From positions 1 through 64,000 of the forward strand of contig CAMWJS010000009.1 of NCBI GenBank assembly GCA_947174635.1: a DNA stretch of 64,000 nucleotides. Reading direction: 5' to 3'. Source of the DNA: an uncultured Muribaculaceae bacterium (lineage in GTDB: Bacteria > Bacteroidota > Bacteroidia > Bacteroidales > Muribaculaceae). Both the position numbers and the translations under genes were made by a program. Below, piece after piece: positions 18,217-18,297 of the stretch; the first letter of the stretch is position 1, and each line of letters starts with the position of its first letter. The notes beneath the pieces are model-generated. The model made no database searches, had not been told where the DNA came from, and saw only the letters and a list, made by a program, of their open reading frames with translations.

Positions 18217-18297
18217 GTAGGGACGCACGGCTCGTGCGTCCGAGTGTTGTATTTGATAATCAGAATGTTGGCGGACGCACGAGCCGTGCGTCCCTAC
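18217..18297. repeat. 81-bp nested-palindrome element, copy A1 (inverted relative to A2-A4)
   Basis: 26-bp perfect terminal arms GTAGGGACGCACGGCTCGTGCGTCCG / inverse, 29-nt centre with TGATAATCA. Confidence 0.95.

Follow-up and report, generated by a model that had tools for sequence, protein, structure and literature searches.

A GTAG-tagged hairpin-pair element in Muribaculaceae that looks like a new REP/BIME-type family

The four copies in the window and the extent of the unit

We analysed a window of 64,000 nucleotides (the whole stretch of DNA presented here) from an uncultured member of the Muribaculaceae (Bacteroidales), whose genome of 2.9 Mb in 123 contigs is referred to as G000. A preliminary description of this window had reported four copies of an 81-bp element. 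We recovered all four at the coordinates given there, each composed of a 26-bp arm, a 29-nt centre and a second 26-bp arm (Table 1). The arm is itself a hairpin, GGACGCACG-NNN-CGTGCGTCC, which occurs 8 times in the window compared to 0.05 occurrences expected from dinucleotide shuffles (none of 100 shuffles reached 8). Its GTAG is joined to a perfectly paired stem of 9 bp that closes a 3-nt loop, and paired arms are arranged with GTAG outward. The REP sequence of the 81-bp core is the GTAG-tagged GTAGGGACGCACGGCTCGTGCGTCC, present as a head-to-head dimer.

The spacer between the arms is about 29 nt long and had been described as conserved at two motifs. TGATTATCA was indeed present in all four copies and is kept in both subfamilies of the element (T1 and T2, see below), whereas CCAAC...CATAA is not general: the spacer of copy 3, a member of the second subfamily, reads CAAAACAGCGCTGATTATCAGCCTTTTAC, and in copy 1 CCAAC is kept but CATAA is not. 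The outer GGTGTTGCA-type sequence that had been noted beside the copies is also present, but it is the element's own part, so that the length of the mobile unit is 142 bp instead of 81 bp. This outer frame has the form G(A/G)GGGTGTTGCA...TGCAACACCCTC and encloses the two-hairpin core; in most copies the frame (GGGTGTTGCAGAACT...AGTTCTGCAACACCC) extends the core by 22 bp at one end and by 35 bp at the other. The terminal inverted repeats of the unit are GAGGGTGTTGCAGAACT and AGTTCTGCAACACCCTC. In 28 of the 41 units with both frames recognisable the distance from GGGTG to CACCC was exactly 138 bp. Together with the adjoining GA/GG and TC this gives the 142-bp unit, over which copies from different species align at 99% identity. 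Changes on one side of the frame tended to be matched on the opposite side (0.83 compared to 0.79 for shuffled pairs, a value reached by 0 of 2000 shuffles), although the copies are related by descent and this is no proof of selection on the pairing. Several older copies sit within an even larger decayed palindrome.

Table 1. Coordinates of the four copies and of a further framed element in the window
Feature	Coordinates	Strand	Remarks
Copy 1, core	18217..18297	-	Head-to-head REP dimer, GTAG outward; spacer on minus strand
Copy 1, whole unit	18193..18334	-	Low-coordinate frame degenerate; other side GGGTGTTGCATATCT (18318-18332, minus strand)
Copy 2, core	20588..20668	+	One arm mismatch (AGACGC)
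Copy 2, whole 142-bp unit	20551..20692	+	Frames 20553-20567 (plus strand) and 20676-20690 (minus strand)
Copy 3, core	52776..52856	+	Subfamily T2 (recently spread)
Copy 3, whole 142-bp T2 unit	52752..52893	+	Sister genome G005 has copies of 99% identity
Copy 4, core	58021..58101	+	Subfamily T1
Copy 4 with left frame	57999..58101	+	Left frame degenerate, gaagggttgcagcacttcatatt; right frame decayed; within the remains of an older, larger palindromic element
Other framed element around copy 3, outer frame	52329..52343	+	AGGTGTTGCAAAACT
Other framed element around copy 3, opposite outer frame	52907..52921	-	GGGTGTTACAAAACT

Other repeats were encountered in the same window. Copy 3 is included in a nested palindromic repeat pile between convergent genes (52329-53400), which also holds two 261-bp copies (52426-52686 and 53077-53337) that are 93% identical, as well as CTTAAGTAAACAGCATTGGG elements with GGACGCG hairpins. 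The genes flanking the pile are located on different contigs in three relatives, which suggests a rearrangement at the pile. Beside copy 2 (20744-20913) there are GAGAGCCGGAGGCTC and ATTAACCCCGGTTCGGAGAACGCGGAGCGG repeats that are common to the pile at 52-53 kb and to relatives. Arrays of a 9-bp unit (GTCCGACAA / GTCCGACCG-like) occur at 15059-15106, 26852-26917, 29668-29733 and 62533-62616, two of these arrays following immediately on the end of a gene.

When single-stranded, the DNA of the 81-mer is predicted to fold into one long hairpin, with −36.7 to −43 kcal/mol where the arms are perfect, compared to −11.5 kcal/mol for each of two small hairpins; GTAG is left unpaired in the predicted single-arm fold. 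The two alternatives that had been put forward as a bistable structure are therefore possible, but the long hairpin is by prediction far more stable and we found no specific support for bistability. A switch between the model folds during strand opening would be conceivable. A central mini-hairpin was rejected as a covarying structure, with 76% of pairs formed compared to 72% in shuffled sequences and four of six positions essentially invariant. As its covariation is weak and its letters are conserved, we read it as a conserved sequence motif.

Copy number, subfamilies and distribution in relatives

Searching the genome for further copies with the arm GTAGGGACGCACGNNNCGTGCGTCC gave 165 matches with at most two mismatches, and none for the reversed control. 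The stretches fetched for the census (the listed arm sites and contigs 57-116) contained 157 arms, with 59 complete pairs and 27 single arms at contig ends. All of the latter belong to one subfamily, which indicates that the assembly breaks at near-identical copies and thus that the true copy number is somewhat higher. The 142-bp element is scattered to about eighty places in the genome. The length of 81 bp, previously taken as fixed, is strongly preferred but not absolute: 49 of the 59 pairs have this length, six are 80 bp long and there is one pair each of 79, 82, 84 and 94 bp. GTAG was invariant among the arms collected with a GTAG-containing pattern allowing up to three mismatches. The arms were also more conserved than spacers and frames, a comparison biased by the fact that the copies were found by their arms.

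The two subfamilies differ in their diversity, with a mean identity of 88% over 138 bp for T1 compared to 98% over 138 bp for the near-identical T2, which is the result of a recent spread. No two of the 36 T2 copies share a left flank, and their common sequence starts at G(A/G)GGGTG. There are 12 different right flanks, in most of which the divergence sets in directly after CTC. As the flanks differ and the ends are sharp, they define a mobile unit. A target duplication was not found; the mean direct match was 0.67 bp compared to 0.62 bp in shuffled flank pairs.

Near relatives as judged by PrmC (80-81% identity) are CAMWIJ01, which matches the site in genome G005, and SCEG01 'Isolate-002', which matches the site in genome G001; both belong to the Muribaculaceae. 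T2 has three matches in G005, with 99% identity to the unit of G000, whereas the genes around the compared sites are only 77-92% identical between the sister species. This difference indicates that the unit moves, and the simplest reading of the alignments would be a recent movement of T2, possibly between species.

The individual sites gave a mixed picture. G005 and G001 both lack copy 1 and have an identical junction at this site. A portion of the right frame is still present in both genomes and thus a deletion in the G005/G001 lineages is at least as likely as an insertion in G000. Copy 2 occurs in decayed form in G005 but not in G001; G005 also contains copy 4, for which G001 has 27 bp in its place. 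Copy 3 coincides with a break of synteny. A T2 copy of contig 6 has no counterpart at the matching place in three relatives, although the intergenic DNA there has diverged. The empty sites that had been proposed as a check therefore took the form of presence/absence variation, with no exact empty site among the sister sites compared. The preliminary description had named a restriction to four copies together with a lack of empty sites as evidence against its proposal. Instead, we observed 165 arms in the genome and copies missing in relatives.

Across the family, a query with the 142-bp unit matched 77 of 399 genomes and 18 of the 30 genera sampled. Many of these matches comprise little beyond the 26-27-bp arm, which is often letter-perfect in different surroundings, and the T2 unit was found in G000 and G005 only among the 399 genomes. 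The persistence of the arm with differing frames and spacers indicates that arms spread without the GAGGGTGTTGCAGAACT frame.

Mobilisation and candidate transposases

By published criteria the element is a GTAG-tagged REP head-to-head dimer and hence a BIME. GTAG is unpaired, the stem of 9 bp falls within the range of 6-13 bp and carries a short loop, the copies are numerous, dispersed and extragenic, and inverse REPs are joined by a linker. The preliminary description had left the choice between a mobilised REP/BIME-like and a MITE-like unit of 81 bp. The REP/BIME part of this proposal is borne out by the GTAG head, the hairpin with its 9-bp stem and 3-nt loop, the head-to-head dimers, the high copy number, the absences in relatives and the RAYT-like genes in the genome. 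The 81 bp were an incomplete unit, as the 142 bp include outer inverted repeats. Of the features of DDE-type MITEs, terminal inverted repeats are present but target-site duplications are not, and a DDE MITE was dropped as first choice for lack of both a target-site duplication and a matching transposase in the 0.8 Mb of G000 read and in the search for DUF772 genes.

We consider it fairly probable that the element is a non-autonomous mobile element of REP/BIME type moved by a RAYT-type transposase in trans. The anatomy, copy number, defined ends, variety of sites, lack of target duplication, recent T2 spread, differences between sister species and presence of RAYT-like genes are observations; RAYT-type mobilisation, a responsible RAYT and a single-stranded intermediate are what we infer. 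Wherever the DNA becomes single-stranded, on the lagging strand or during repair, the GTAG-hairpins would fold. A RAYT-type HUH/Y1 transposase would bind the folded hairpins in trans, cleave near the ends of the unit and join it elsewhere without a target duplication; the lack of such a duplication is as expected of Y1 chemistry. In favour of this reading, one of the RAYT genes of G000 (locus L033) has its own GTAG REP pair, and this pair sits in the same GAGGGTGTTGCAGAACT frame as the element. The bias of the copies towards convergent and against divergent gene ends (see below) also agrees with it, as REPs elsewhere behave alike. Against it stand the outer inverted repeat, which ordinary REPs lack, the want of an exact empty site among the sister sites compared, the low scores of the RAYT-like proteins and the results on RAYT borders and co-occurrence given next.

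G000 encodes four RAYT-like proteins (L032, L033, L034 and L035), none of which reaches the 80-bit cut-off of NCBIfam for RAYTs, and has one IS200 gene. A RAYT flanked by the arms of the element (GTAGGGACGCACG), as the preliminary description had led us to look for, was found neither in G000 nor in 30 element-carrying loci of the family nor at the RAYT loci examined, so that a REPtron arrangement for this element, in which a RAYT is bordered by the same REP, was seen neither in G000 nor in the relatives examined. The RAYTs L032 and L033 are bordered by REP pairs of their own that differ from the arm of the element. On the 3' side of the L033 gene (gene 576-1238; frame 420-560) a GAGGGTGTTGCAGAACT...AGTTTTGCGACGCCCTC frame surrounds a tail-to-tail GTAGCCGCGG pair with GTAG inward, and a single GTAGCCGCGG hairpin lies just 5' of the gene (1240-1262). 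Judged by this arrangement, L033 is a probable Muribaculaceae REPtron. In several family genomes the RAYTs of relatives, the L033 type among them, are bordered by other GTAG/GCAG hairpins. The L033 RAYT was rejected as a family-wide partner, as there is no clear co-occurrence (L033-type RAYTs in 13 of 77 genomes with element matches and in 39 of 322 without). Comparing L033 by sequence with solved structures gave no match, and no carriage of the element by phages or plasmids was found.

Two further observations concern RAYT genes in general. In G005 (L064:1072-1927) and at the matching locus of G001, a RAYT is bordered on both sides by head-to-head GCAGGG(A/G)CGGGGGCGTCTCGCCCCCG pairs. Long RAYT-like proteins are encoded at L034, L035, L052 and L065-L068, those of L034 and L035 having 280-324 aa with a C-terminal extension. 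No bordering REPs were found at the two long RAYT-like loci examined, and these long proteins are perhaps domesticated.

It is also possible, if rather doubtful, that the outer frame is the mover. The element would then be a MITE- or TIRtron-like unit that carries the REP pair as a passenger, and its GAGGGTGTTGCAGAACT inverted repeats would be recognised either by a DDE transposase or by a Y1 enzyme bordered by TIRs. The mobile unit ends where the frame ends, and different hairpin pairs occur in one frame: among the frame-held pairs in the stretches read, 46 carry GGACGCACG, 11 carry CCGCGGTT (CCGCGG) and there are a few others. In G013, which belongs to another genus, the frame surrounds different arms and adjoins a Y1 remnant, and Y1 remnants lie between frame-like repeats. 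In G220 (L323:963-2042) an intact IS200-type transposase gene is enclosed by long inverted repeats resembling the frame and has an exact GAGGGTGTTGCAAAAC motif close by, by its layout a possible TIRtron; such TIR-flanked relatives of RAYTs have been described (PMC3733652). However, the missing target duplication and the family-wide persistence of the arm with differing frames and spacers argue against the frame as mover. Furthermore, no frame-bounded transposase gene was present in the 0.8 of 2.9 Mb of G000 that were read, and a DDE search limited to DUF772 detected no IS1182/IS5-type gene in G000 or G005. A modular system is an unlikely reading. Here the common frame GAGGGTGTTGCAGAACT... would serve as a mobile chassis in which GTAG-REP pairs have been exchanged for one another, every pair with a RAYT specificity of its own, and REP families would spread by cassette exchange while the 26-bp arm passes between genera.

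We regard it as improbable that the unit is a transcribed RNA element whose hairpin acts in the protection of 3' ends or in transcription termination and whose copies are kept by selection for this role. As RNA the 138-nt unit reaches about −100 kcal/mol (z −19), and the placement of the copies is biased: 47 lie between genes and 7 inside heuristic ORFs, which are mostly short. With a simple ORF picker, the flanking genes of the 47 intergenic copies are in the same direction in 26 cases, convergent in 17 and divergent in 4. Compared to the remaining intergenic gaps of these stretches, convergent positions are over-represented (p = 0.002) and divergent ones under-represented (p = 0.013; Fisher, heuristic gene calls). 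However, a purging of insertions into promoters predicts the same placement, a poly-T tract does not belong to the fixed parts of the unit, copies are gained or lost between sister species and no Rfam family scored above the gathering threshold. One T2 copy lies exactly within a terminator-like stem, which fits an RNA role, but insertion into terminator stems as a rule was rejected, since this was the single clear case and overall the observations did not exceed those in shuffled data. It is very improbable that an inert remnant was amplified by recombination or gene conversion and not by transposition, for although the arms are the best conserved part (with the bias given above) and copy 3 marks a synteny break, the 36 T2 copies with their unrelated flanks and sharp ends need a mobility step.

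Relation to known systems

GTAG-tagged REPs are known to form head-to-head dimers with a conserved structured spacer of 20-100 bp, and elsewhere REPs show a bias towards convergent and unidirectional gene ends (Di Nocera et al. 2013, PMC3733652). The element resembles these dimers and BIMEs in its GTAG tag, short perfect stem, 3-nt loop, high copy number, conserved spacer and gene-end bias. It differs in its Bacteroidota host, in the extra inverted repeat that is common to different REP families and in that a cognate RAYT was not found. With the TnpAREP/RAYT REPtrons of group 3, which have perfect palindromes (Corneloup et al. 2021, PMC8266576), it shares the REP layout, a GTAG motif ahead of a short palindrome without mismatches; the RAYT-like proteins of G000, however, are below the family cut-off. 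As in TIRtrons, in which RAYT-like genes are bordered by TIRs (PMC3733652), the outer inverted repeats are also scattered away from the gene, but the frame contained no gene in the part of G000 read and only Y1 remnants in G013. MITEs such as NEMIS, RUP and ERIC (listed in PMC3733652) are likewise small, non-coding and intergenic with terminal inverted repeats. In contrast to MITEs, the element has no target-site duplication and no transposase with matching TIRs was found in the part of G000 read.

In the open-licence papers searched we found no earlier description of REPs for Bacteroidota, gut members included. The new points are a GTAG family in Bacteroidota and an outer frame that is shared around different hairpin pairs and coincides with the mobile ends. 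What we have described appears to be a new family of hairpin-pair DNA parasites of the REP/BIME type. Its mobile ends are defined, the recently spread and near-identical T2 subfamily supplies 36 different left edges, copies are present in some sister species and missing in others, and the frame also encloses sibling REP families, one of which is attached to a RAYT gene. These assets make its mobility a question that is testable in gut Bacteroidota.
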